Below, in pieces: positions 1,638-15,769 of a stretch of DNA of 64,000 bases; position 1 is the first letter of the stretch, and the number at the start of each line of letters is the position of its first letter. The translations under genes were made by a program, and so were the position numbers. The stretch is taken from the NCBI RefSeq assembly GCF_033097525.1, contig NZ_CP109907.1, positions 2,294,001 through 2,358,000 of the forward strand, given 5' to 3'. This DNA is from Sphingobacterium sp. UGAL515B_05. GTDB lineage: Bacteria > Bacteroidota > Bacteroidia > Sphingobacteriales > Sphingobacteriaceae. The notes under the pieces are model-generated. The model was given only the letters and a program-made list of their open reading frames with translations, did no database searches and was not told where the DNA came from.

Positions 1638-2179
1638 GTGTTGTTTTTTTTTGGCGTATAAAGGCTTTCGGAAAAATGATCCGAAAGCCTTTATACATTA
1701 TATCACTTTCATGTTTTATTGGAAGTTGTGTTTGCTCTGCTGTGTGCTATACTAGATTTGGAATAGTTTTTAAAATAAAGCATGCGGATTGTTGCTGAAA
1801 GTTGGGGATTATGTGGTAATCAGCTATTTAAATGCTTGGTAGTACTGATTTGTGCGCGGTTGCATGGTTCATATTGAGGTAATGTATTTGTTACATTATA
1901 GTGTTTTATTTACACTAACAACATGTTCTTCGATATTGATTTATTTCTATAATAATCTGTATTTCTTTGTTTTATCATTTTTTTGTTTTACTGTTTTGAA
2001 ATAAAAAAAAGGAAATATTTTATTTTTGTTTTAACTTAAAAAAAAGTGAATACTTACTTTCTTTTGCGTTTTTGTGACAATTTTAGTTTTAAAATCGAAA
2101 AGTTCTACTTACTTTTATCCTGATTTTCAATTATTCGTGCATAAAACTGCATGTTGTGTATGATCTAATGATCTATCTT
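1638..2179. other. AT-rich intergenic region with hairpin and direct repeats
   Basis: This gap between the glycosidase and namZ has no convincing ORF. It contains a 16-bp perfect hairpin (1656-1696), a match to the Bacteroidota -7 element (TATTTTTG at 2021-2028) with a TTTG 22 nt upstream, and two copies of TACTTACTTT (2051-2060 and 2106-2115). It probably holds the promoter and control region for the namZ-susCD operon. Confidence 0.5.
1656..1696. terminator. Hairpin, probable terminator of the glycosidase operon
   Basis: A perfect 16-bp stem (1656-1671 with 1681-1696) has a 9-nt loop. It lies 19 bp after the glycosidase stop. A T-run precedes rather than follows the stem on the + strand, so it is an imperfect intrinsic terminator, but its strength and place fit transcript 3'-end formation. 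Confidence 0.6.
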
Positions 2180-3424
2180 ATGATAAAAACTAACTTATTT
2201 GCGCTAATTCTAGTGGTTTCAAATACCCTTTTTATTTCTTGTGGAAGTTCATTGAAGTCTGTTCAGACGAATGAAAAAGCAGGAAGTAGCATTTCTGGTG
2301 ATATATCGAACAAGGTTGTTGTGCCAGGGGCAGATCAGTTAGCCTTATATTTACCGCAATTAAAAGGGAAGAAAGTTGGGGTTATGGGAAATCAAACATC
2401 AATTGTTGGGCCCGATAAAAAACATCTCGTGGATGTTTTAATGGATAATAAAGTTGACTTAAAATTTGCCTTTGCGCCTGAGCATGGCTTCCGTGGTAAT
2501 GTAGAGCGTGGCGAGAAGTTTGGAAATGATATTGATCAGAAAACAGGTTTACCACTATTTACATTATATGGTGGAAATAAGAAACAAGATTCGATTGTCA
2601 ATTCCATCGATGTTATGATCTTCGATCTACAGGATGTCGGAGCGCGTTTTTACACGTATATCACTTCCTTGCATCGTGTGATGGAGCTTTGTGCAAAGCA
2701 TAACAAGAAATTAATTGTATTGGATCGCCCAAATCCGAATGGAGATCAGGTCGACGGTCCAGTAAGGCATGATGACAAGTTTAAATCCGATGTTTCTTGG
2801 CATAAAATAGCAATGATCCACGGTCTGACAATTGGTGAGTTGGCACAGATGATCAATGGGGAACACTGGTTAGAAAATGGTCGCCAGGTAGATGTGCAGG
2901 TTGTAAAGGTGCAAAATTGGGATCACAAAACGATGTACGATTTACCGGTAATTCCTTCACCAAGTCTACCCAATCAGCTTTCTGTACGATTGTATCTTTC
3001 ACTATGCCTTTTCGAAGGAACTGATATTTCGGTAGGGCGTGGGACAGATTGGCCATTCCAAGTTTTGGGGTATACAAATCCGGTTTATGGCTCTTTTACG
3101 TTTACCCCGGGGGAACGTCATGGTATGTCCAAACATGTGGAAGGGAAAGGTGCAACGAATTATGGTATAGATCTACGTGCTCTGGATCCTGAAAAGCAAA
3201 AATTCACACTAAAATATGTCTTAGATTTTTATCAAAAGACGCCTGATAAATCGACATTCTTTGCAAGGCCCGAATTTTTCGATAAGCTCGCAGGGACTGA
3301 TCAGTTGCGTAAGCAGATTCTTGCAGGTGAATCGGAGGCACAGATTCGCGCTTCCTGGTCGGATGACTTGAAAAATTATAAACAGATGCGTAAGAAGTAT
3401 TTGTTATATACTGATTTTGAATAG
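2180..3424 (+). CDS. namZ: Exo-beta-N-acetylmuramidase NamZ-like lipoprotein (DUF1343, GH171)
   Basis: This is a DUF1343 protein, the family whose characterised members (NamZ, GH171) release N-acetylmuramic acid from the non-reducing ends of peptidoglycan fragments. Family signatures are VGVMGNQTSIV, FAPEHGFRG (with the conserved acidic residue), FDLQDVGARFYTYITS and LDRPNPNG, followed by the C-terminal PSPSLPN...GRGTDWPF region. I prefer ATG 2180 because it gives a clean lipoprotein signal, MIKTNLF...LFISC (Cys21); the frame also opens at GTG 2156, which would add eight residues. It is followed by susC and susD, so it is probably displayed on the cell surface and feeds products to that transporter. 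The activity is inferred from the family. Confidence 0.88.
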   Translation: MIKTNLFALILVVSNTLFISCGSSLKSVQTNEKAGSSISGDISNKVVVPGADQLALYLPQLKGKKVGVMGNQTSIVGPDKKHLVDVLMDNKVDLKFAFAPEHGFRGNVERGEKFGNDIDQKTGLPLFTLYGGNKKQDSIVNSIDVMIFDLQDVGARFYTYITSLHRVMELCAKHNKKLIVLDRPNPNGDQVDGPVRHDDKFKSDVSWHKIAMIHGLTIGELAQMINGEHWLENGRQVDVQVVKVQNWDHKTMYDLPVIPSPSLPNQLSVRLYLSLCLFEGTDISVGRGTDWPFQVLGYTNPVYGSFTFTPGERHGMSKHVEGKGATNYGIDLRALDPEKQKFTLKYVLDFYQKTPDKSTFFARPEFFDKLAGTDQLRKQILAGESEAQIRASWSDDLKNYKQMRKKYLLYTDFE

Positions 3425-3475
3425 CAATAACTAACAATATTAACTAGAATCATTTATTTTAAAACTCTATAATCA

Positions 3476-6400
3476 ATGAGAAAATTTGTACTATTTTCTG
3501 TTGCTCTTGGATTGAGTTTTCCTTCTGAATCCTATTCTTTTACAAAAAAAGAAGGTTCTTTGAATAGCAATAAGTTAACAAATGCTCTTCTAAGCTCTTC
3601 TCTAAAAAGTGCGGTTCAAAATACGGTGCAAGGTACTGTAACGGATGGAAAAGGTCCAGTCTCTGGGGTAAGTGTGTCTTTGATTGGCGGTGCCGCGTCA
3701 ACAAAGACCGATGCTCAAGGACATTTTAAAATTACAGCTGCCGTGGGGAGCAAGTTGCGTTTTTCATCTGTTGGATACGTGACGAAAGAGATTACGATTA
3801 CTTCAAGCTCACTTGATGTAACATTAGCCGACGATAATCAAGCGTTGGACGAAGTGGTGGTTGTCGGTTATGGTACCCAGAAAAAAGGTAACCTAACTGG
3901 TGCTGTATCTACTGTCAACGTAAAAGATAATCTACAAGGGCGTGCTATTGCGGATGTTGGTCGTGGTATTCAAGGTACGACGCCAGGTTTGACAGTTGTG
4001 GTACCAAGTGGAGAAGTTGGTTCCGATCCGGTTATGAAAATCCGTGGTCAAATGGGGTCAATTGCAGGCGGATCCAGTCCACTTATCTTGTTGGATAATG
4101 TGGAGATTCCAAGCATTCAGTTAGTTAATCCTGCTGATGTAGAGTCTATTTCCGTATTGAAAGATGCTGCTGCTTCTTCTATTTATGGAGCTAAAGCTGC
4201 ATTTGGTGTGGTATTGATTACAACAAAAAAAGGGGCACAAGGCGGAGATAGTTTCAATATCAATTATTCCAATAACTTCTCCTTTCAGAATTCGGCTGTA
4301 GATTATAACATGGGTGATGTGAATGCCCTTAAGTATTCTTTGGAAGCTGCGGAGCGTGTCGGTGAATCTGAAACAGGTGCATTTTATAAAATTAACCGCG
4401 AAAGCTATCAGCGTGCGCTGGACTGGAAGCAGAAATATGGTAACTCAATCGGAGCGAACGATCCTACTGTTTATGGTCGTGATTGGTATGTTAATCCTGC
4501 TGAACCTACGAAAAAGTATGGTGTGCGTACTTATAATGTAGAGGATTATATGATCCGTAAGGCTGCACCGACTTCTCAGCATGATTTAAGTATTTCAGGT
4601 ACATCTGGAAAGACGCAGTATAATTTAAGTATGGGCTTGTTGAATCAGTCGGGTATGATGAAAACAACGGATCATGATAAATTTAATCGTACTAATGCGG
4701 CGTTGCGTATATCGTCAGAGATCAATAAATACCTGACTGTGCGTGGTGGTGCCATGGTGTCGCGTCGTAAAAAAGAATATCCTTATACAACAAATTCAAC
4801 CACTGCGGATCCTTGGTTATACCTCTACCGTTGGAGTTCGTTATATCCAATGGGGTATGATGAAAAGGGTAACATGATCCGTAGTCCGTGGAGTGAGACT
4901 TCTTCTGCAAATACAGCGAGTTTCCAAAATAATTACATCAATTTAAATTTAGGTGCAACTGTAAATATCAAGAAAAACTGGAAAGTGGATTTTGATTATA
5001 CATTCTCCAATCAGGAGGAAATCACCACACAGCCTGGTACGCGTTTTACTGCCGCAGATTCTTGGGTTGCGGGGGTAGCTAGAAAAGATGCTGCGGGTAA
5101 TCCTGTTTATGTGAACTCCGACGGACAGGTAGTTGCTGCTGGTGCTGCAGGAGCAATGGCTGCCTATGATTTGAATTATTATACTTACACGGCGAATGGA
5201 GCAAACCCAGATCATTTTTTGAGAGCATCGGGCGCTCGTCGTAATAATACAATCAATGCTTTCACTACCTATAATTTAAACCTGGACGATGATCATGATT
5301 TCAAATTTATTGCGGGTGTTAACCGTGTGACTTTGGATTATGATATGAATTCTTCCCAAACGTTTAACTTATTGGATATCCAAAATCCACAACTGGGTTT
5401 TGGTGTGAATACTTCAGCGCAATTGGCGAAAGGTGATGCCGCATGGGAAGCGCAGTTAGGTTATTTCGGACGGGTAAATTATGCCTATAAGAATAAATAT
5501 TTGGTAGAGGCAAACATTCGTTACGACGGTTCTTCTAAGTTTCCAAAAGATTTGAAATGGCAATGGTTTCCGTCCTTCTCGGCAGGTTGGGTAGCTTCGG
5601 AAGAGAATTTTATGGAATGGGCCAAGCCTACGCTTAATCAGTTGAAGTTTAGAGGTTCTTGGGGGTCTATCGGTGATCAGACCGTGCCGCCAAGTTTATA
5701 TACATCGACCATGATTCCGGGAGATGTTGCTTGGTTGGGTGCTGATGGTAGTCGTTACTTCACGATCGGAACTCCTTCAGCCGTAAGAAGTGAATTGAAA
5801 TGGCAGCGTATTGAAACCACAGATATAGGTTTGGATATGCGCATGTTCAAGAGCAAATTCGGATTGGTTTTCGATTGGTATAGAAGGGATACTAAGAATA
5901 TGATCGTTCCAAGTGGCGATGTCAGTGCAACGTTTGGAGCGCCTGCACCACAGGGCAACTTCGGGGCTTTGCGTACACAAGGATGGGAGTTGGCTTTAGA
6001 TTTTAACCATCGTTTTGAAAGCGGTTTTGGCTTTAATGTCAGAGGTACATTATCAGATGCTAAAACGACTATTCTACAGTATACAAATACCCGGGTGATT
6101 TCAGATTACTATAATGGTAAAGATGTGGGTGAAATCTGGGGTTATCGTACAGATAGATTATATCAAGCCGGTGATTTTGAATATGGTTCTGATGGTAAAT
6201 TGGTTACGACCACTGTTGCGGGTAAAGTGATGAATAAGCTTTCGGATCCTAATGGGGCTTATAATACCTTTCCGACCAGCAGTAACTTTAGGTTCGGTCC
6301 TGGTGACGTGAAATTTGCCGATTTGAATGGTGATGGTCAGATCAATGCCGGAGCCGGTACGTTAGACGACCATGGTGACATGGAAATCATCGGTAATGAA

Positions 6401-6937
6401 ACACCGCGTTATGAATATGGTTTCCGTTTAGGATTTGACTATAAGGGCTTTGATCTTTCTGGATTTATGCAAGGTGTTGGAAAGCGTCAGATCTGGGGTA
6501 ATGGTTTCTTGACAATTCCGGGTTACAATGCTTCGGATGGCGCTATGCCTTCGGCAATTGCAGATAATTTCTGGTCTGCGGATCATACGGGCGCATTTTA
6601 TCCGAGAGCATATAATAATGCGGCAAGTAATGATGCAAACAATATGGTTAAACAGTCCCGTTACTTATTGGATATGTCCTATTTGCGTATTAAAAATATA
6701 ACGTTGGGTTATACACTTCCTTCAACATTAACGCGCAAAGCATTTATCAAAACGGCAAGAGTTTATACTTCATTGGAAAATTTCTTCACCTTTGATAAGT
6801 TGAATGGTTTGCCGGTTGACCCGGAAGCAATCAATGGCTTTTCTATATTTAATGCTACAAATTATAACTCGGGTAGAACAGGTGTAGGTACACCAATGTT
6901 TAAGTCGGTATCGTTTGGTGTTCAGGTTAATTTTTAA
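3476..6937 (+). CDS. SusC/RagA-family TonB-dependent outer membrane transporter
   Basis: The protein has 1,153 residues: a signal peptide, a carboxypeptidase-regulatory-like beta domain (VQGTVTDGKGPVSGVSV onward, ~50-115), the SusC signature LDEVVVVGYGTQKKGNLTGAVS (~123-145), a plug domain with SILKDAAASSIYGAKAAFGVVLITTKKG (~227-255) and a long beta barrel ending in VNF, the outer-membrane insertion signal. No N-terminal STN domain is seen, so regulation through an anti-sigma factor is unlikely. It lies 51 bp after namZ and 11 bp before susD. Together with SusD it should import large glycan or muropeptide fragments using TonB energy. The substrate is inferred from the NamZ and MurQ neighbours. 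Confidence 0.95.
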   Translation: MRKFVLFSVALGLSFPSESYSFTKKEGSLNSNKLTNALLSSSLKSAVQNTVQGTVTDGKGPVSGVSVSLIGGAASTKTDAQGHFKITAAVGSKLRFSSVGYVTKEITITSSSLDVTLADDNQALDEVVVVGYGTQKKGNLTGAVSTVNVKDNLQGRAIADVGRGIQGTTPGLTVVVPSGEVGSDPVMKIRGQMGSIAGGSSPLILLDNVEIPSIQLVNPADVESISVLKDAAASSIYGAKAAFGVVLITTKKGAQGGDSFNINYSNNFSFQNSAVDYNMGDVNALKYSLEAAERVGESETGAFYKINRESYQRALDWKQKYGNSIGANDPTVYGRDWYVNPAEPTKKYGVRTYNVEDYMIRKAAPTSQHDLSISGTSGKTQYNLSMGLLNQSGMMKTTDHDKFNRTNAALRISSEINKYLTVRGGAMVSRRKKEYPYTTNSTTADPWLYLYRWSSLYPMGYDEKGNMIRSPWSETSSANTASFQNNYINLNLGATVNIKKNWKVDFDYTFSNQEEITTQPGTRFTAADSWVAGVARKDAAGNPVYVNSDGQVVAAGAAGAMAAYDLNYYTYTANGANPDHFLRASGARRNNTINAFTTYNLNLDDDHDFKFIAGVNRVTLDYDMNSSQTFNLLDIQNPQLGFGVNTSAQLAKGDAAWEAQLGYFGRVNYAYKNKYLVEANIRYDGSSKFPKDLKWQWFPSFSAGWVASEENFMEWAKPTLNQLKFRGSWGSIGDQTVPPSLYTSTMIPGDVAWLGADGSRYFTIGTPSAVRSELKWQRIETTDIGLDMRMFKSKFGLVFDWYRRDTKNMIVPSGDVSATFGAPAPQGNFGALRTQGWELALDFNHRFESGFGFNVRGTLSDAKTTILQYTNTRVISDYYNGKDVGEIWGYRTDRLYQAGDFEYGSDGKLVTTTVAGKVMNKLSDPNGAYNTFPTSSNFRFGPGDVKFADLNGDGQINAGAGTLDDHGDMEIIGNETPRYEYGFRLGFDYKGFDLSGFMQGVGKRQIWGNGFLTIPGYNASDGAMPSAIADNFWSADHTGAFYPRAYNNAASNDANNMVKQSRYLLDMSYLRIKNITLGYTLPSTLTRKAFIKTARVYTSLENFFTFDKLNGLPVDPEAINGFSIFNATNYNSGRTGVGTPMFKSVSFGVQVNF

Positions 6938-6948
6938 AATTTACAACA

Positions 6949-8805
6949 ATGAAATTTACAAAGAAAATAGCATTTATGGCGCTTGGAGCAACGTTGGTGC
7001 TATCATCCTGTAATAAAGATGTGCTTGATCGTAATCAGCTGACAAGCTTAGAAGATGAGAAAGGCTGGGGCAATGAGCTTGCGTTGCGTTTGTACGCTAA
7101 CGGATTTTATGCCAATTATTTTACGGGATATAATACAGGGTATGCAACGGCTTACGCGCCAGTGACAGGTTATAATTTTGCGGACGATCTGACAAAGAAA
7201 AATATTCAGGATAACTTTGAGAACTCGGTGCCGACTTCTAGAAGGGCAACAGGGTCAACTATTGCCGCTTTAGAGTTGCCTGATATGTTGCGTCAGTATT
7301 CTGGACCTACATGGAATTTTTCGTATGTGCGTAAAGCAAATATTTTTATCGATCGGATAGAGAGCAAAACAAAACCAAATATTAATGATGAAACTTACCG
7401 CCATTGGATGGCGGTAGCCCGTTTCTTCAGAGGTTTTGAGTATAGCCGACTGGTAGAGGTGTTCGGTGACGTGCCTTATTATGATAAGGAATTGAAGGAC
7501 ACTGAACTGGATTTGATGTACAAGGATCGTGACAGTCGCGCTGTCGTGATGGATCATGTGTATGACGATTTTCAATATGTATTGGATAATATGCGTACAA
7601 ACGATGGTAAGCAATATCTGAATAAATATGTGGCGGCATCCTTTATATCCAGACTGATGCTGTTTGAGGGATCGTTTTTGTATTATCACAATTTAGATAA
7701 GGATAGGGCAAAGAAATACCTGGAAATGGCTCAGAAGGCTGCAGAGGTTGTTATGGGGTCTAATGCTTATAATTTTAGCAGTGATTTCAAAAGCTTATTT
7801 GCATCGGAAGATTTGAGTGCAAACAAAGAGGTGATTATGTATCGCGCCTATGATGCAACTAAAAGTGCAACGCATAGTGTGGGGTCGTACAGCAATGGTA
7901 CCGAAGGTCAGGGAAATGCGGTAAATTTGATGTTGGTTAAATCCTTTATCTGTAATGACGGTAAGCCTTGGCAAAATTCTTCTGTAGCAAATGCAAATAG
8001 CTTTACACTGAAAGATTTGGCGGTTACCCGTGATCCGCGTTTTGAAGCTTCCATCTATGAAAAGCCATTAACGTCTTCATCCACACTTTTCTACGCTTAT
8101 AAATTTGCGTCGCGAGAAGCATTGACATACCTGGGTAAAACTTACCCAGCTGCATGGGGTTCTAATACAAATACTTCGGATGCTCCGGTAATCCGTTTGG
8201 CAGAAGTTGTTTTGAACTGGGTTGAGGCTAAGCAAATTTTAGCAGAAGGTTTTGGAGCTGCTGCGGTAACACAGACCGATATTGATAAATCCATCAATGC
8301 AATCCGTAATCGTCCACTTGATGCAGCGGCAGCAGCAAAAGGTGTGCAGAAAACAGCTGCATTGCAGATTGGAGCGATTGCAAATGATCCTTCCCGCGAT
8401 GCTGACGTTTCACCTTTAATGTGGGAAATCAGACGCGAAAGACGTATGGAGTTTGTTTATGAAGGCTTACGTCTGCTTGATATCAAACGTTGGAAGAAGT
8501 TAAACTATATGGACTTTAGCAAAAACAACGACTATTTCCTGGGGCCTTGGATCAATGTGAAACAAGATATGCCGGCCTTGTTGGTTGATAGTAAAAAAGG
8601 ATTGTTGAAAGTAGTGGATGCTAATGGTAATATCATCTCTTATGATGGCACAAATGGTGACAAGCTGATCGGGTATTATCGCGTCGAGGATGTACAGAAT
8701 CGTGAGCCATTTTCAGATCGTTCGTATATTTCACCTGTGGGATTAGAACAGGTAAATGAATATGCTGCAAAAGGCTATAAATTAACACAAACTAAAGGGT
8801 GGTAA
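6949..8805 (+). CDS. SusD/RagB-family surface nutrient-binding lipoprotein
   Basis: The 618-aa SusD-like lipoprotein has lipobox LSSC (Cys21). Family features are the TPR-like alpha-helical part (for example WNFSYVRKANIFIDRIES and HWMAVARFFRGFEYSRLVEVFGDVPY) and the C-terminal RRERRMEFVYEGLRLLDIKRWKK segment. SusD proteins form the lid of the SusC channel and bind the ligand at the surface. The gene starts 11 bp after susC and ends in front of a strong terminator, so namZ-susC-susD form one transcription unit. Confidence 0.95.
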   Translation: MKFTKKIAFMALGATLVLSSCNKDVLDRNQLTSLEDEKGWGNELALRLYANGFYANYFTGYNTGYATAYAPVTGYNFADDLTKKNIQDNFENSVPTSRRATGSTIAALELPDMLRQYSGPTWNFSYVRKANIFIDRIESKTKPNINDETYRHWMAVARFFRGFEYSRLVEVFGDVPYYDKELKDTELDLMYKDRDSRAVVMDHVYDDFQYVLDNMRTNDGKQYLNKYVAASFISRLMLFEGSFLYYHNLDKDRAKKYLEMAQKAAEVVMGSNAYNFSSDFKSLFASEDLSANKEVIMYRAYDATKSATHSVGSYSNGTEGQGNAVNLMLVKSFICNDGKPWQNSSVANANSFTLKDLAVTRDPRFEASIYEKPLTSSSTLFYAYKFASREALTYLGKTYPAAWGSNTNTSDAPVIRLAEVVLNWVEAKQILAEGFGAAAVTQTDIDKSINAIRNRPLDAAAAAKGVQKTAALQIGAIANDPSRDADVSPLMWEIRRERRMEFVYEGLRLLDIKRWKKLNYMDFSKNNDYFLGPWINVKQDMPALLVDSKKGLLKVVDANGNIISYDGTNGDKLIGYYRVEDVQNREPFSDRSYISPVGLEQVNEYAAKGYKLTQTKGW

Positions 8806-8825
8806 TTTAATCCACATATGATGAG

Positions 8826-8857
8826 GCCTTGTCTATGTTTTTAGACAAGGCTTTTTT
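8826..8857 (+). terminator. Intrinsic terminator after susD
   Basis: GCCTTGTCTA pairs with TAGACAAGGC across a 6-nt loop and is followed by six T residues. It separates the namZ-susCD unit from the downstream enzyme operon. Confidence 0.92.
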
Positions 8858-8914
8858 ATGTCCATGATCGCCGTGGCTGTCGAACTCAAACCTAAATCTC
8901 CATCTAAAATACTT

Positions 8915-8966
8915 TGCATAAAAACGCATTTTTATTTTATTATTATGCATGAAAACGCTATTTTTA
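8915..8966. promoter_or_regulatory. Direct repeat upstream of the phosphoesterase gene, candidate operator
   Basis: Two similar elements, TGCATAAAAACGC (from 8915) and TGCATGAAAACGC (from 8946), each followed by an A/T run, are offset by 31 bp, about three helical turns, and lie just before the chosen start at 8981. The spacing fits cooperative binding of a regulator on one face of the DNA. This is a sequence observation only. Confidence 0.35.
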
Positions 8967-8980
8967 AGAAAACATTACGC

Positions 8981-10840
8981 ATGAGGTTTCCAATTATCAC
9001 CTTTTTTATTGCATTATCCTGCGTTTTTAACGTTGTGATAGCGCAGCAGTCCTTCAAATTTGCCCACGTTACAGACACGCATGTCGGTGGTGCAACAGGA
9101 GAGGAGGATTTGCGACGTACTGTAAAGGACCTGAATACATTGAAAGATATTGATTTCGTTATACTTTCTGGAGATATCACCGAGTTTGGTGCCGATCACG
9201 AGTTAAAGCTGGCAAAGCGCATCTTAGATAGTTTGCAGCTGCCCTGGTATGTGATCCCGGGAAACCACGATGGAAATTGGTCTGAAAATGGAGCCAATAC
9301 ATTTCGCACCGTTTTTGGTGGTGAAACTTTTTTCTTTAAGCATAAAGGTTACGCATTCATTGGAACCAATTCAGGACCAAATATGCGTATGAGCCCTGGT
9401 CAGATTCCTCGTGAGAACCTGGTCTGGATGGATTCCATTTTTGCAGCGAATCCGGATAATCAGCTGCCATTGATCTATATTAATCATTATCCACAGGATT
9501 CGTCTCTAAATAACTGGTTTGACGCTTTAAAAAGGGTCAAAACGCGCAATGTCCAATTGGCGCTTTGCGGACATGGCCATGCCAATAAATTGTATGATTG
9601 GGAAGGAATTCCGGGGGTAATGGGACGGTCCAACCTGCGTGCGAATAAAGAAGTTGGCGGTTATAATATTGTGACCATCGCCGATGGCAAAGCAAGTTAT
9701 CAGGAGCGTAATCCCGGTGTGGGGATGCAGGAGAAATCTTGGGTCGTTGTTCCTCTATTTAATCATCACTATGAAAATGAGACAGTAAGCTACCCGAGAC
9801 CCAGTTATGCTGTGAATGCAAAATATGCAGATCAGGTTAAAGTCAATTGGACGTTTGAAGATGCCAGCGATATCGGGGCTGGACTAGCTGTTTACAAAAA
9901 TAGCGTGATTACATCAAATACCGCGGGCGATATCTTTGCGCTTGATTTAAAAACCGGTAAAAAGCGATGGGCATTTCGTACAGGTGGCAAAGTTTATTCT
10001 ACGCCAGCTGTGTGGAAAGGAATCGTGGTTGCGGGGTCATCGGATCATGCAATTTATGCGGTAGATGCCCGAAATGGCAAGTTGTTATGGAGGGTACAGA
10101 CTGAAAAGGCGGTTTTGGGTTCGCCTCTGTTACATGACGGCGTGGCTTTTATCGGTGGTTCGGATGGTAAGTTTAGAGCGCTGGACATCAAGACAGGGGC
10201 TGTAAAATGGAGCTTTGATCAGGTCAAAGGATTTGTATCGACCCTGCCAACGTATTATTTGGGAAATGTAATTTTTGGCTCCTGGAGTAATGGATTCTAT
10301 GCTTTGAATGTCAATACAGGTAAGCTGTCGTGGGAATGGAATAATGGACAGGCTAATCGGATGTTTTCAGCGGCGGCATGTAATCCAGTAGGGGTAAATA
10401 ATCGTGTTTTTGTAGTTGCACCGGATCGTTTTATGACAGCACTGGATGCGAAAACGGGGGCGGTCATTTGGCGGGAAAAGAAAGATACCATTCGGGTGCG
10501 CGAGTCTATGGGCTTGGCGGCAGATCATAAATTGGTTTATGTGAAGACGATGGATGGGGACCTTTTGGGTATTTCAGTTGCTGCTGATCGTATGGATGTT
10601 GCCTGGAAGTCCAAGCTTAAATTGCCTTATGAATTGACGCCTTCTGCAATTATATCCAATGGCAAATTGGTATTTGTGCCGAGTCATTCGGGTTTGCTAT
10701 CCGGGGTTGACGCAAAAACAGGCGCGGTAGTATGGCAATATAAAATATCCAATGGAATGGTTAATCCTGTTGCGCTAAACGGCCGAAACAAGGTGATAGC
10801 GAGTACGATGGATGGCAAAATAGTTTCATTAGAGTTTTAA
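8981..10840 (+). CDS. Secreted metallophosphoesterase fused to PQQ-type beta-propeller
   Basis: From ATG 8981 the product starts with the signal peptide MRFPIITFFIALSCVFNVVIAQ. The frame is open from 8858, but the extra residues would spoil the signal peptide. Residues ~22-230 form a calcineurin-like phosphoesterase: THVTDTHVGG-like motif (FAHVTDTHVGG), LSGDITEFG, IPGNHDG, YINHYP and CGHGHANKL supply the dimetal ligands. The rest (~290-620) has repeated blades such as IFALDLKTGKKRWAFRTGGK, IYAVDARNGKLLWRV and FRALDIKTGAVKWSF, typical of PQQ/PQQ-like propellers. It may be a phosphodiesterase or phosphatase for the glycan processed by this locus, with the propeller binding substrate. The substrate is unknown. 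GH9 follows after 42 bp. Confidence 0.85.
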   Translation: MRFPIITFFIALSCVFNVVIAQQSFKFAHVTDTHVGGATGEEDLRRTVKDLNTLKDIDFVILSGDITEFGADHELKLAKRILDSLQLPWYVIPGNHDGNWSENGANTFRTVFGGETFFFKHKGYAFIGTNSGPNMRMSPGQIPRENLVWMDSIFAANPDNQLPLIYINHYPQDSSLNNWFDALKRVKTRNVQLALCGHGHANKLYDWEGIPGVMGRSNLRANKEVGGYNIVTIADGKASYQERNPGVGMQEKSWVVVPLFNHHYENETVSYPRPSYAVNAKYADQVKVNWTFEDASDIGAGLAVYKNSVITSNTAGDIFALDLKTGKKRWAFRTGGKVYSTPAVWKGIVVAGSSDHAIYAVDARNGKLLWRVQTEKAVLGSPLLHDGVAFIGGSDGKFRALDIKTGAVKWSFDQVKGFVSTLPTYYLGNVIFGSWSNGFYALNVNTGKLSWEWNNGQANRMFSAAACNPVGVNNRVFVVAPDRFMTALDAKTGAVIWREKKDTIRVRESMGLAADHKLVYVKTMDGDLLGISVAADRMDVAWKSKLKLPYELTPSAIISNGKLVFVPSHSGLLSGVDAKTGAVVWQYKISNGMVNPVALNGRNKVIASTMDGKIVSLEF

Positions 10841-10882
10841 GCAATCGATTGAATTGATCTTTTTGAAAATAAATGCCTTGAT

Positions 10883-12709
10883 ATGATAAAAAAATGTCTA
10901 AACTTCTTAAATTTACGTCAAGCTTTTTTGCTTGTTTTTGCATGTTTTGTTTGTAACTTTGCGAAAGCACAGCAAAATGCTTGGATTAGAATAAACCAAT
11001 TGGGCTATACTCCGGCGGGCAAGAAGGTCGCGGTATGGGGCGGGAAATCAATCAGGCAGCTTCGTTCTTTTGAAATTAAAAACGCACAAACGGGTAAAAC
11101 AGTGTATGTGCATCCTGTGGGAAAAGATTATGGGGCTTATGGTCCTTTTGTTCAGAGCTTTCGTTTGGATTTCTCTTCTATGCAGGATACAGGACGTTTT
11201 TTTGTTCAGGCTGGAGATGTGAAGTCTCCAACATTCCGAATTGCTCGGGACGTTTATAAGGGAGCGGCCGATTTTGTACTGCGTTATATGCGGCAACAAC
11301 GGACATTGTTCAACCCTTTTCTGAAAGATAGCTGCCACACACACGATGGATTTGCGCTTTATGCAGGAAAGGTTGGTATTCCCGATAGCTCCCGCATCGA
11401 TGCTGGCGGAGGTTGGCATGATGCTTCTGATTATTTGCAATATGCGACTACGTCGGCAAATGCAACATTTCATCTGTTAGCGGCTTACCGCGATTTTCCA
11501 AAGGTATTTGGTGATCTAAAGCAAGCAAATGGTCTTGACGGAAAAAACGGTCGTGCCGATGTACTGGATGAAGCAAAATGGGGCCTGGATTGGTTATTGA
11601 AGATGCATCCTAAAGCCAATCAGATGTACAATCAGATTGGTGATGACCGGGATCATGCAAGTATGCGGATGCCAAAGGAAGATCCCTATTATGGTCGTGG
11701 ATTTGAACGACCGGTGTATTTTATCGATGGCGAACCACAACAGCGTGGTAAGTTTATGAATAATACGACGGGCACTAGCTCTACTGCTGGTAAATTTAGT
11801 AGTGCTTTTCGCTTGGGAGCGATGTTGTTTGACAAGGAAGATCGGACGTATGCAAAGCTGCTTTCGAAAAAATCGGAAACGGCCTATGCTTATGCCAATA
11901 TAAAACCAGGCGTGACACAGACGGTTTCTGTGAAATCGCCCTATATTTATGCCGAAGACAATTGGGTAGACGATATGCAGTTGGCTGCGGCAATGGGGTT
12001 CTCCACGACAAAAAAAGGAAAATTCGCACGAGAAGCCTTGCGCTATGCCCGACAGGAAAAGATTACACCTTGGATGATAAGCGATACTGCTGCACATTAT
12101 CAGTGGTACCCTTTTATCAATCTTGGGCATTATGAATTGGCAAAAGGATTAAAAGGACAAGATCGCGAGGAGATTGTTTCTTATTATAAACAGGGGATTG
12201 AGGAAGTCAATCGGAGAGCCGAAAAAAATGCATTTTTTCGTGGAGTTCCCTTTATTTGGTGTAGCAACAACTTAACGGTATCCTTCGCGATTCAATGTCT
12301 CTGGTACAAAGAATTGACGGGAGATGCGCATTTCGATGAGCTTGCTCAGGCTAATTTTGACTGGTTGTTTGGAACGAACCCTTGGGGCACGAGTATGGTA
12401 TATGGTCTTCCGTCGTGGGGCGATACACCTGTTGATCCGCATTCGGCTTTTACCTTTCTGGGTAAACATCCGATCGATGGCGGTTTGGTTGATGGGCCCA
12501 TTATGGCATCTACGTACCGCAATCTGATCGGTATCAAGTTGAATAATCCAGATAGCTATGCGGAGTTTCAAAGTGATTTGGCGGTCTATCATGACGACTA
12601 TGGAGATTATAGTACCAATGAGCCGACAATGGATGGTACCGCTTCGTTGATTTATCTGCTGGCTTCAAAGGAAGGTAAGGCAATGGAGGAGCCGACCGGA
12701 AAAAAGTAA
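10883..12709 (+). CDS. Glycoside hydrolase family 9 enzyme with N-terminal Ig-like domain
   Basis: The 608-aa protein has a signal peptide (~1-29), a CelD_N Ig-like domain starting WIRINQLGYTPAGKKVAVW (~34-120) and a GH9 (alpha/alpha)6 catalytic domain. GH9 hallmarks are GGWHDASDY with the paired Asp residues (D180, D183), DVLDEAKWGLDWLLKMH, FGTNPWGTSMVYG and the C-terminal acid-base Glu in YSTNEPTMDGTAS (E580). GH9 is mostly endoglucanases, but it also contains exo-glucosaminidases; beside NamZ and MurQ a wall-derived aminosugar substrate is more likely than cellulose (inference). The last codons read GGA AAA AAG TAA, a slip-prone sequence, and the -1 frame continues into the deacetylase. 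It may therefore be the first half of a frameshift fusion. Confidence 0.88.
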   Translation: MIKKCLNFLNLRQAFLLVFACFVCNFAKAQQNAWIRINQLGYTPAGKKVAVWGGKSIRQLRSFEIKNAQTGKTVYVHPVGKDYGAYGPFVQSFRLDFSSMQDTGRFFVQAGDVKSPTFRIARDVYKGAADFVLRYMRQQRTLFNPFLKDSCHTHDGFALYAGKVGIPDSSRIDAGGGWHDASDYLQYATTSANATFHLLAAYRDFPKVFGDLKQANGLDGKNGRADVLDEAKWGLDWLLKMHPKANQMYNQIGDDRDHASMRMPKEDPYYGRGFERPVYFIDGEPQQRGKFMNNTTGTSSTAGKFSSAFRLGAMLFDKEDRTYAKLLSKKSETAYAYANIKPGVTQTVSVKSPYIYAEDNWVDDMQLAAAMGFSTTKKGKFAREALRYARQEKITPWMISDTAAHYQWYPFINLGHYELAKGLKGQDREEIVSYYKQGIEEVNRRAEKNAFFRGVPFIWCSNNLTVSFAIQCLWYKELTGDAHFDELAQANFDWLFGTNPWGTSMVYGLPSWGDTPVDPHSAFTFLGKHPIDGGLVDGPIMASTYRNLIGIKLNNPDSYAEFQSDLAVYHDDYGDYSTNEPTMDGTASLIYLLASKEGKAMEEPTGKK

Positions 12710-12738
12710 CACCGGATGTTTTCGGAGCTATTGTCCGG
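12700..12738 (+). promoter_or_regulatory. Candidate -1 frameshift site joining GH9 and deacetylase
   Basis: A AAA AAG (12700-12706), in phase with the GH9 frame and directly before its TAA stop, is the heptamer used by E. coli dnaX. Slipping back one base gives AAA AAA GTA ACA CCG, which enters the deacetylase frame without a stop. Five nt downstream a small stem can form (CCGGA 12712-12716 with TCCGG 12734-12738), at the usual distance for a stimulator. The alternative is a single-base deletion or assembly error in the A-run; a seventh A would also fuse the genes. Confidence 0.55.
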
Positions 12739-12765
12739 GGCGACTCGACAAAACGGCAGGTAGCT

Positions 12766-13404
12766 TTGATGTTTACAGGTCATGATTTATCTGAAGGTAC
12801 AGGAGAGGTGTTGGCAAGTCTAAAACGTAATGGCGTTAAAGGTTCTTTTTTCCTGACAGGTGATTATCTCAGAACACCGGGTTTTAAATCCTATGTCCAT
12901 CAGATGATAAACGATGGTCATTGGATTTCGGGGCATTCGGATAAACATCTTCTGGTGAGTGACTGGGGGAGTAGGGACCTGCTTTTGGTGAAACGTGACT
13001 CTTTTGTCGCGGATCTAAAGGCAAATCTGAAAGCATTGGAAAGCGGGGGTATTGATATCGGGAATTTGTCCTATTATATTCCTTCGTACGAGTGGTATAA
13101 TAGTGAAACGGTCGATTGGGCAAAAGCAGTAGGTCTACATTCGGTTAATTATACACCGGGAATACGGACTGCAGCTGATTATACCTATCCTGAAATGGGG
13201 ACTCGTTATTTATCGTCGACAGCGATTCTCGACAATCTCTGGTCTTACGAAGCTCGGTATGGGCTCAATGGATTTCTGATATTGATTCATATGGGAACCG
13301 ATGATCGGCGGAAAGATAAACTGTATCATCATTTGGATGATATCATTAGCATATTAAAGGGAAAAGGGTATCAACTTGTGGATGTACCCGATTTATTGAA
13401 ATAA
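12766..13404 (+). CDS. Polysaccharide deacetylase (CE4-like), probably part of a GH9 fusion
   Basis: This is a NodB-homology deacetylase. VALMFTGHDLSEGTG is the first motif (Asp of TGHD), SFFLTGDYL follows, GHSDKH is the metal-binding H-x3-H motif, and FLILIHMGTD is the late His motif. The first usable starts are TTG 12766 and ATG 12769, but these fall inside the first conserved strand: upstream in the same frame, back to a stop at 12676, the DNA still codes VTPDVFGAIVRGDSTKRQ, which belongs to the domain. A genuine N-terminus and signal peptide are therefore missing, and translation probably comes from GH9 by -1 frameshift at 12700-12706. It would remove N-acetyl groups from GlcNAc/MurNAc-type sugars. 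MurQ follows 22 bp later. Confidence 0.75.
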   Translation: MMFTGHDLSEGTGEVLASLKRNGVKGSFFLTGDYLRTPGFKSYVHQMINDGHWISGHSDKHLLVSDWGSRDLLLVKRDSFVADLKANLKALESGGIDIGNLSYYIPSYEWYNSETVDWAKAVGLHSVNYTPGIRTAADYTYPEMGTRYLSSTAILDNLWSYEARYGLNGFLILIHMGTDDRRKDKLYHHLDDIISILKGKGYQLVDVPDLLK

Positions 13405-13426
13405 AGAAATACAATATATACTAATA

Positions 13427-14239
13427 ATGGTAAATACAACGGAGAAAGATTCGAATTATCAGGATTTGGACAAGATGTCTGTGCATGAGTTATTGACAAA
13501 TATCAATAATGAGGATAAATCTGTGCCACTTGCTGTAGAGCAGGCTATCCCTCAGATTGAAGCATTGGTCAAAGTGACTGTGGAGAAAATGAAGGCTGGT
13601 GGTCGAACTTTTTATATCGGCGCTGGTACAAGTGGTCGTTTGGGCGTGTTGGATGCGTCAGAATTACCTCCGACTTACGGTGTGCCATTTGAATGGATCA
13701 TTGGGTTGATTGCTGGTGGTGATACTGCAATTCGAAAAGCAGTTGAATTTGCAGAAGATGATCTGGAGCAAGCCTGGAAAGATATGGAAGCCTATGATAT
13801 TGATGAAAACGATGTTGTTATCGGTATTGCGGCCTCTGGAACCACACCTTATGTTATTGGCGGATTGAAAACCGCAAATGAGAAGGGGCTTGTTACGGGC
13901 TGTATTGTCTGTAATGGCGGTTCTCCGATTGCTGAAGTAGCGCAGTATCCGGTTGAAGTTATTGTTGGGCCGGAATTCGTTACCGGGTCTACGCGGATGA
14001 AGTCAGGTACCGCTCAGAAACTTGTGTTAAATATGTTCAGTACTGCAGTGATGATCCAATTGGGTAGGGTAAAAGGGAATAAGATGGTCGATATGCAGTT
14101 GTCAAACCATAAGTTGGTCGGCCGTGGTGTACGTATCATTATGGATCAAACGGGGGCGCCTGAGGGAGAGGCTGCGGCTTTACTTGAACAATTTGGCAAT
14201 GTGAGACAGGCAATTGAAGCTTATCAGGCTACCCATTGA
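13427..14239 (+). CDS. murQ: N-acetylmuramic acid 6-phosphate etherase
   Basis: MurQ cleaves the lactyl ether of MurNAc-6-P to give GlcNAc-6-P and D-lactate in the cytoplasm. The 270-aa SIS-domain protein shows the family motifs YIGAGTSGRLGVLDASELPP, GDTAIRKAVEFAEDD, IAASGTTPYV, GPEFVTGSTRMKSGTAQK and DMQLSNHKL. The MurQ specificity motif with TGSTRMKSGT and the SIS pocket are intact, so it is very likely active. It lies 22 bp after the deacetylase frame and 39 bp before the symporter. Its substrate normally comes from a MurNAc kinase (MurK) or a PTS; neither is in this window, so the kinase is presumably encoded elsewhere. Confidence 0.96.
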   Translation: MVNTTEKDSNYQDLDKMSVHELLTNINNEDKSVPLAVEQAIPQIEALVKVTVEKMKAGGRTFYIGAGTSGRLGVLDASELPPTYGVPFEWIIGLIAGGDTAIRKAVEFAEDDLEQAWKDMEAYDIDENDVVIGIAASGTTPYVIGGLKTANEKGLVTGCIVCNGGSPIAEVAQYPVEVIVGPEFVTGSTRMKSGTAQKLVLNMFSTAVMIQLGRVKGNKMVDMQLSNHKLVGRGVRIIMDQTGAPEGEAAALLEQFGNVRQAIEAYQATH

Positions 14240-14278
14240 GTATAACCTACTAAAAATCACCTATTTTAAAAACAAACT

Positions 14279-15769
14279 ATGTCACCAGTAATATTATTAT
14301 CTTTTATAATAATCTATTTTGCAGTTCTGCTTGCTGTAGCTCACTTCACCTCGAAGGGGGCTTCCGATAACTCTACTTTTTTTGTCGCAAACCGGAACTC
14401 TAAATGGTATATGGTCGCCTTTGGGATGATCGGTACCGCGCTCTCCGGCGTAACTTTTATTTCGGTTCCCGGCGCAGTAGGTGCGTCTGAATTTAGCTAT
14501 TTTCAATTTGTTCTTGGGAATGCCGTTGGTTTTGTCATTATTGCCTATGTATTGCTTCCGCTCTATTATAGAATGAACTTGACTTCCATCTATACTTATT
14601 TGGAAGAACGTTTTGGGCACACCACGTACAAAACAGGTGCTGCTATTTTTTTGGTTTCCCGTACGATCGGTTCGGCATTTCGTCTTTATTTGGTGGCAAT
14701 CGTATTGCAGCATTTTATTTTTGATGCCTGGAATGTGCCTTTCGCGATTACGGTCGTTATATGTTTGGTATTGATCTGGATGTATACAAATAAGGGCGGT
14801 TTAAAGACGATCATTGTGACAGATACCCTACAGACTACCTTTTTAGTGACTGCAGTCATTCTTTCCATTTATTTTATGGCAAAAGGATTAGATTTTGGTA
14901 TTGTGGATACTTTCGAGGCTGTGAAAGAAAGTAGTTACTCTAAGATCTTTTTCTGGGATGATTTTGTGGGCAGTAAAGCAAATTTTTGGAAACAATTCTT
15001 GGGAGGAATTTTTGTGACCATTGCCATGACGGGGCTTGATCAGGATCTGATGCAAAAGAACTTATCGATGGGGACCATTAAAGAGGCACAAAAGAATATG
15101 ATTACGTTTACAAGTGTATTTGTGGTTATTAATATTTTCTTTTTAGCTGTTGGTGCTTTGCTGTATATCTATGCGGCTAAAAACGGGATTGATGTCACTC
15201 AACTGGCAACACGAGACTATTTGTATCCAGAAATTGCATTAAACCACTTGGCGATTGTCCCTGCAATCATCTTTATGATGGGACTTACGGCGGCTACTTT
15301 TGCAACGACAGATAGTGCGCTGACTGCCCTGACGACATCTTTCTGCGTAGACTTTTTAAACTTCAATAAAAAAGAAAACCCCAACGATCCAGCTTTGATC
15401 AAACAGCGTAACTATGTGCATTTTGGCTTTTCCATTGTGATGTTGTTGGTTATTCTGGTCTTTAAGCTGATCAATGATGATTCGGTCGTCAATGCAATCT
15501 TTACGGCAGCGAGTTATACGTACGGACCTTTACTGGGTTTATTCGTTTTTGGGATATTCACAAAATATGCCGTGCGGGATAATGCTGTGCCTTATATCTG
15601 TGTACTTTCGCCCACCGTATTATTTTTGCTTAAAACCTATGTTATTGAGGTGTACACACCCTATGTTATCGGGTTGGATTTGATCATCATTAACGGTTTT
15701 ATCACGTTTGTAATGCTTTTGATCAGTTCGCCGGGTAAAGCAAGTGAAAAAGCATTGTCCCACAATTAA
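14279..15769 (+). CDS. Sodium:solute symporter family transporter, probable MurNAc uptake
   Basis: The 496-aa inner-membrane protein has about 13 hydrophobic helices and SSS-family features: a start with a substituted TM1, FFVANRNSKWYMVAFGMIGT, SGVTFISVPG, YLEERFG and GLTAATFATTDSALTALTTSF with the Na+-binding Ser/Thr residues. It directly follows murQ, and Bacteroidota MurNAc salvage operons carry an SSS-type transporter in this place (murT of Tannerella). I infer MurNAc or muropeptide-sugar uptake across the inner membrane driven by Na+. Sialic acid or other sugars cannot be excluded by sequence alone. Confidence 0.88.
   Translation: MSPVILLSFIIIYFAVLLAVAHFTSKGASDNSTFFVANRNSKWYMVAFGMIGTALSGVTFISVPGAVGASEFSYFQFVLGNAVGFVIIAYVLLPLYYRMNLTSIYTYLEERFGHTTYKTGAAIFLVSRTIGSAFRLYLVAIVLQHFIFDAWNVPFAITVVICLVLIWMYTNKGGLKTIIVTDTLQTTFLVTAVILSIYFMAKGLDFGIVDTFEAVKESSYSKIFFWDDFVGSKANFWKQFLGGIFVTIAMTGLDQDLMQKNLSMGTIKEAQKNMITFTSVFVVINIFFLAVGALLYIYAAKNGIDVTQLATRDYLYPEIALNHLAIVPAIIFMMGLTAATFATTDSALTALTTSFCVDFLNFNKKENPNDPALIKQRNYVHFGFSIVMLLVILVFKLINDDSVVNAIFTAASYTYGPLLGLFVFGIFTKYAVRDNAVPYICVLSPTVLFLLKTYVIEVYTPYVIGLDLIIINGFITFVMLLISSPGKASEKALSHN

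Follow-up and report, generated by a model that had tools for sequence, protein, structure and literature searches.

A GH9-CE4 gene of Sphingobacterium and other Bacteroidota with a probable programmed -1 ribosomal frameshift

Described recoding sites and the GH9-CE4 junction

Beyond dnaX and mobile elements, we know of few cellular -1 frameshifts that are well supported. The site in Escherichia coli dnaX combines the slippery heptamer A_AAA_AAG with an upstream Shine-Dalgarno (SD) stimulator at a spacing of 10 nt and with a 3' stem-loop stimulator, and the single lysine tRNA that reads both AAA and AAG in this organism favours the shift without being strictly required. Frameshifting in E. coli dnaX has an efficiency of 50% (PMC5009743), and some prokaryotic -1 sites lack a 3' stem-loop (PMC4066793). 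In a reversed form of the dnaX type, represented by a candidate from Chlorobium, the 0-frame stop abuts the shift site and it is the shifted ribosomes that make the long product, while dnaX of Thermus thermophilus is subject to transcriptional slippage, a process known in bacteria where 9 A or T stand in a row (PMC5009743).

The SD-like +1 shift site of prfB is retained in all Sphingobacteriales analysed (PMC8710568). Ribosomes of Bacteroidia keep the tail of the 16S rRNA in a pocket formed by bS21, bS18 and bS6 and do not recognise SD sequences (PMC9976891), and for prfB it has been proposed that a long pause frees the anti-SD (PMC8710568). Among the papers searched, none describes a GH9-CE4 frameshift or any other -1 frameshift joining two secreted carbohydrate enzymes; the GeneTack survey (PMC3711429), which includes 22 Bacteroidetes genomes, names no such gene in its text.

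The stretch of DNA analysed here (the window) comprises 64,000 nt, positions 2,294,001-2,358,000 of a 6.36-Mb single-contig Sphingobacterium genome, for which the nearest named relative in the comparison set is S. siyangense (99% identical in GH9 and 94% in CE4). The window features described lie on the forward (+) strand. The GH9 open reading frame (0 frame, 10883..12709) encodes 608 aa with a signal-peptide-like N-terminus and a complete catalytic domain (CelD_N 31-115, Glyco_hydro_9 125-593), and its 3' end reads GGA AAA AAG TAA at 12698-12709. The original prediction placed an in-phase A AAA AAG at this end, and the heptamer indeed occupies 12700..12706 in phase with GH9, with the 0-frame stop TAA abutting it at 12707..12709. 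A TAA at 12676..12678 shuts the -1 frame on the 5' side, so that the CE4 frame is open only from 12679. It stays open from there to the stop at 13402-13404 and reads VTPDVFGAIVRGDSTKRQVALMFTGHD, running stop-free into the deacetylase as had been claimed, and its 232 aa plus stop at 12706..13404 make up a CE4-like polysaccharide deacetylase domain. The linker that precedes the core (12706..12765) is devoid of start codons; the first ATG, GTG or TTG of the -1 frame are a TTG at 12766 and an ATG at 12769, both within the first core strand, which agrees with the earlier remark that the deacetylase has no start of its own outside its core.

This junction resembles E. coli dnaX in its heptamer and its upstream SD-like element, and the reversed dnaX type in the stop that abuts the shift site and in the long product that would result from the shift. 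It differs from E. coli dnaX in the gene concerned and in what this encodes (a secreted GH9, alone or joined to CE4), in having no conserved 3' hairpin, in belonging to a genome with a tRNA-Lys(CUU), and in a host phylum that sequesters the anti-SD (PMC9976891). Judged from sequence comparison, the locus is very probably one gene in which a programmed -1 ribosomal frameshift gives rise to both a secreted GH9 and a GH9-CE4 fusion. Programmed frameshifting was one of two options originally put forward, and it is supported by 59 loci with the heptamer in the same phase, by pN/pS of the linker and by the SD-like site upstream.

Conservation of the junction and selection on both frames

When the CE4 domain was used as a query, 144 of 400 genomes from the same family and 19 of 395 from the class gave matches, and 80 named loci were taken from a species-level collection. 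After merging of duplicates, 123 distinct loci had a recognisable GH9 end beside CE4: 79 in the -1 relation, 42 fused in frame and 2 other. Two of the 79 (L161 and L162), in which CE4 is interrupted within the domain, are apparently pseudogenes or assembly errors and were set aside. Alignment of homologs had been suggested as a check on the junction, and it spoke in its favour, with 77 intact loci split in the same -1 relation, every one of them carrying a slippery A-run at the junction. In 59 of these, the window included, the run consists of six or seven A followed by G (hereafter A6G loci), always in the A_AAA_AAG phase and with a TAA or TAG directly after it in 56; the remaining 18 have A9 or A10 runs in mixed codon phases. 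The 42 in-frame fusions (Pedobacter, Chitinophaga, Dyadobacter and some Sphingobacterium) share domains, domain order and the linker motif GAI(I/V)RGD with the split loci, but are read in one frame and bear CE4 on all chains.

The A6G loci span at least eight genera and several families, with hosts in Sphingobacterium, Rhinopithecimicrobium, Parapedobacter, Arcticibacter, Pararcticibacter, Pedobacter, Pontibacter (Hymenobacteraceae) and a Flammeovirgaceae MAG. On a quick tree of GH9 plus CE4, in which several forks are open, the A6G state requires 10 changes, at least six of these being forced by well-supported branches, and it is kept in 28 of 28 loci of the clade containing the window. At three loci (L147, L153 and L157), at least one sense codon lies between the heptamer and the 0-frame stop. 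This stop is TAA at 35 and TAG at 24 of the 59 loci and never TGA, an absence that rare use of TGA may explain (4 of 35 window genes end in it); a TGA-free stop would keep the shift site independent of RF2. In Parapedobacter, the open frame bearing GH9 at L068 and L078 is about 1,215 aa long. Here GH9 may form a single frame with the metallophosphoesterase-propeller gene that precedes it, and the shift would then yield a three-part product.

Rarity of the heptamer, alone or together with an SD, was considered as evidence and found to be unusable, as both occur at chance frequency: in-frame A_AAA_AAG is not enriched in 35 window genes (3 vs. 4.5 expected), and the pattern GGAGG-N8-12-AAAAAAG was found 10 times genome-wide vs. 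11 in a reversed control. The GH9-CE4 junction is the only copy at which two long open frames are joined in the correct phase, a property shared by none of the other nine hits. What exceeds chance is the conservation in 59 distinct homologous loci.

The same conservation bears on the second option originally considered, the loss of a single A from a once fused gene or during assembly, which, taken as decay or error, would mean that CE4 is no longer made. In-frame fusions in relatives and the two loci broken inside CE4 are what this explanation can call upon; against it are the identical site in 59 loci from many assemblies and the purifying selection on CE4 and linker at high synonymous divergence, and we assign it a negligible probability. 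An assembly error or a recent loss of one A in the window genome in particular is ruled out, the same site, frame and stop being present in the 59 loci and in many independent assemblies, single-contig genomes included.

Selection is evident on both frames. In three clades, pN/pS is 0.26, 0.30 and 0.20 for the first 20 codons of the -1 frame, which lie upstream of the core, and 0.14-0.31 for the remaining CE4, at synonymous differences of about 0.5-0.7 per site. In the 0 frame, synonymous change in the last six GH9 codons is 0.31 vs. 0.62 gene-wide, and 0.058 vs. 0.57 in Pontibacter. The AlphaFold model of the window CE4 domain (pLDDT 90) has an ordered strand within the linker (residues 9-11). 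A separate CE4 gene with its own signal peptide and an unconserved -1 linker had been named as observations that would speak against a single locus; the split loci have neither, linker pN/pS being 0.20-0.30 there, and stand-alone CE4 genes with signal-like N-termini exist in other lineages.

Translational reinitiation, in which a separate CE4 would be started in or near the core after termination of GH9, could make use of TTG 12766 or ATG 12769 in the window. Between the upstream stop and the core, a GTG or TTG without ATG is found at 27 of the 59 A6G loci and an ATG at 3, but 29 have no ATG, GTG or TTG at all, and selection and the modelled strand both extend upstream of the core. A CE4 made by reinitiation would carry no signal peptide, unlike the other CE4 relatives, which either form part of a secreted GH9 protein or possess a signal-like N-terminus of their own. 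The conserved heptamer would also be left unexplained. We therefore regard reinitiation as very improbable, and the programmed shift as the better account of the linker.

The upstream Shine-Dalgarno-like element, downstream structure and lysine tRNAs

An element overlooked in the original prediction is GGAGG at 12685..12689, an SD-like sequence exactly 10 nt 5' of the heptamer and a proposed stimulator of the shift. GGAGG is found at exactly 10 nt in 46 of the 59 A6G loci (42 listed with this spacing and another four, from Pontibacter, in which the first of two copies has it) and at 13 nt in six. The energy of the duplex with the anti-SD has a sharp minimum at this position in the A6G loci and none in the A9/A10 loci. 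When the whole linker was searched, a strong SD-like site (-7 kcal/mol or better) was present in 59 of 59 A6G loci vs. 1 of 18 A9/A10 loci and 5 of 42 fused loci. In 21 lineage representatives with a spacing of 10, none of the five GGAGG bases varies, yet the residues encoded there differ (M, L, Q, R, S, P, K or G in the codon before GAG and E, G or V in the next), so that it is the nucleotides and not the residues that are conserved. Resampling of synonymous codons in 30 representatives, which are related and for which the result is no strict probability, gave 8.9 expected SD-like sites vs. 30 of 30 observed.

The 16S tail of the window genome is GGAATACCTCCTTTCT in the four copies read and has its CCUCC core intact; a search with a pattern ending GGATCACCTCC gave no match, and the tail was read beside a conserved 16S stretch. 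The role of GGAGG as a frameshift stimulator is nonetheless uncertain, because Bacteroidia ribosomes ignore the SD at initiation (PMC9976891). The prfB +1 site of Bacteroidia likewise has an internal SD-like element near a stop that is kept despite SD-ignoring initiation (PMC8710568), and the GH9-CE4 site would pose this riddle a second time, for a -1 shift and in a gene unrelated to prfB. The two sites differ in spacing (10 nt vs. a few nt at prfB), and at the GH9-CE4 site the stop is never TGA and there is no release-factor autoregulation.

Transcriptional slippage, by which RNA polymerase would add or drop A's so that some mRNAs encode the fusion in frame, has its best footing in the 18 related A9/A10 loci, whose runs, in mixed codon phases, are of a length at which RNA polymerase is known to slip. 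Since the SD-like element is mostly missing from these loci and their runs are of slippage length, a different mechanism from that at the A6G loci, namely slippage of RNA polymerase, fits them. Run length in the A10 group seems to change easily; the very close relatives L021 and L023 differ there by one base (A10 vs. A11), one being split and the other an in-frame fusion. The run in the window is only A6, and slippage needs no fixed phase, no G after the run and no SD-like element, all three of which are present at 59 of 59 A6G loci. For the window we consider it improbable, if less so than reinitiation, and a ribosomal shift remains the preferred reading.

The 3' stem of the original prediction fared less well than its heptamer. 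CCGGA (12712-12716) and TCCGG (12734-12738) are present in the window and can pair, but the stem is not conserved: among 22 close relatives, with the window counted as one of them, only the window itself forms the complete set of 5 pairs, and the others form 2-4. The 40 nt after the stop in the window fold no better than shuffled sequences (z = 0.08), downstream folding over the 59 loci has a mean z of about -0.9 to -1.0, and in three groups RNAalifold detected no common 3' structure. The window genome has four genes for tRNA-Lys(UUU) and one for tRNA-Lys(CUU), and the latter should lower slipping on AAG relative to E. coli. As the conserved 3' hairpin and the single lysine tRNA are both missing, the efficiency of the GH9-CE4 shift may be below that of E. 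coli dnaX.

Enzymes, locus and implications

The 0-frame product matches the Glyco_hydro_9 profile (PF00759, E=2.5e-67) from position 1 to 444 of 444 and has CelD_N in addition. Since it spans the whole GH9 profile, the shift would add a second domain and would not rescue a truncated enzyme. The CE4 domain has a NodB-type fold. It matches Polysacc_deac_1 (PF01522, E=7.8e-10), and a Foldseek comparison of its model with CE4 structures gave E of about 1e-13, the nearest folds being peptidoglycan GlcNAc deacetylases and also the CE4 pseudoenzyme BA3943. Metal binding and catalysis in CE4 enzymes depend on motif 1 (TFDD) and motif 2 (HxxxH). In 30 aligned relatives HxxxH (H77, H81) is invariant and motif 1 reads FT[GA][DH][DEST]. 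The domain therefore appears to represent an unusual CE4 subgroup of uncertain activity, as motif 1 is non-canonical despite HxxxH. An AlphaFold model of a full in-frame fusion, from S. wenxiniae, was of moderate quality (pLDDT 71) and is not used in support of any claim.

The gene is flanked by a NamZ exo-beta-N-acetylmuramidase (2156..3424; NamZ_N 1.2e-69, NamZ_C 2.1e-29), a SusC-type TonB-dependent receptor (3476..6937), a SusD-type protein (6949..8805) and a metallophosphoesterase with beta-propeller repeats (8858..10840) on its 5' side, and by the N-acetylmuramic acid 6-phosphate etherase MurQ (13427..14239; TIGR00274 above cut-off) and a sodium:solute symporter (14279..15769) on its 3' side. 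MurQ is a neighbour at 27 of 32 named A6G loci, those of Pontibacter and Parapedobacter included. The region 2156-15769 looks like an amino-sugar (murein) utilisation locus. Because of the NamZ, SusCD and MurQ neighbours and the recurrence of MurQ, the substrate is probably glycans with N-acetylmuramic acid, most likely murein fragments, or else other N-acetylated amino-sugar glycans, and GH9 may not be a cellulase here.

We propose the following model. A fraction of ribosomes would stop at TAA 12707 and release the secreted GH9 of 608 aa. Others would pause with GGAGG (12685-12689) paired to the 16S tail and the 0-frame stop codon next, and the lysyl-tRNAs would step back one base on A_AAA_AAG. 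Continued in the -1 frame, translation would yield a fusion of GH9 and CE4 about 840 aa long, by which CE4, having no signal peptide of its own, would be exported as part of the GH9 fusion, and the pair of products would act within the NamZ/SusCD/MurQ locus.

Annotation from start to stop cuts the GH9-CE4 gene in two in many genomes, and the beginning of the deacetylase would be lost by it. Most telling is that GGAGG is conserved 10 nt before the heptamer in a phylum, Bacteroidota, whose ribosomes disregard the SD at initiation. Together with prfB, it would be a second, independent sign that elongating Bacteroidota ribosomes can use the anti-SD, and the site offers a reporter for such use in elongation. 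The presence of A6G with an SD, A9/A10 without an SD and plain fusion in one family likewise lets recoding by the ribosome and recoding during transcription be compared in a natural setting. Tentatively, and with somewhat less than even confidence, we suggest that a -1 shift stimulated by pairing of the internal SD-like element with the anti-SD during elongation governs how much GH9 is made relative to GH9-CE4 in several families of Bacteroidota, a phylum that hides the anti-SD at initiation, sister lineages using A9/A10 slippage or a fixed fusion instead, and that CE4 dosage could thereby track bS21 content or growth state.
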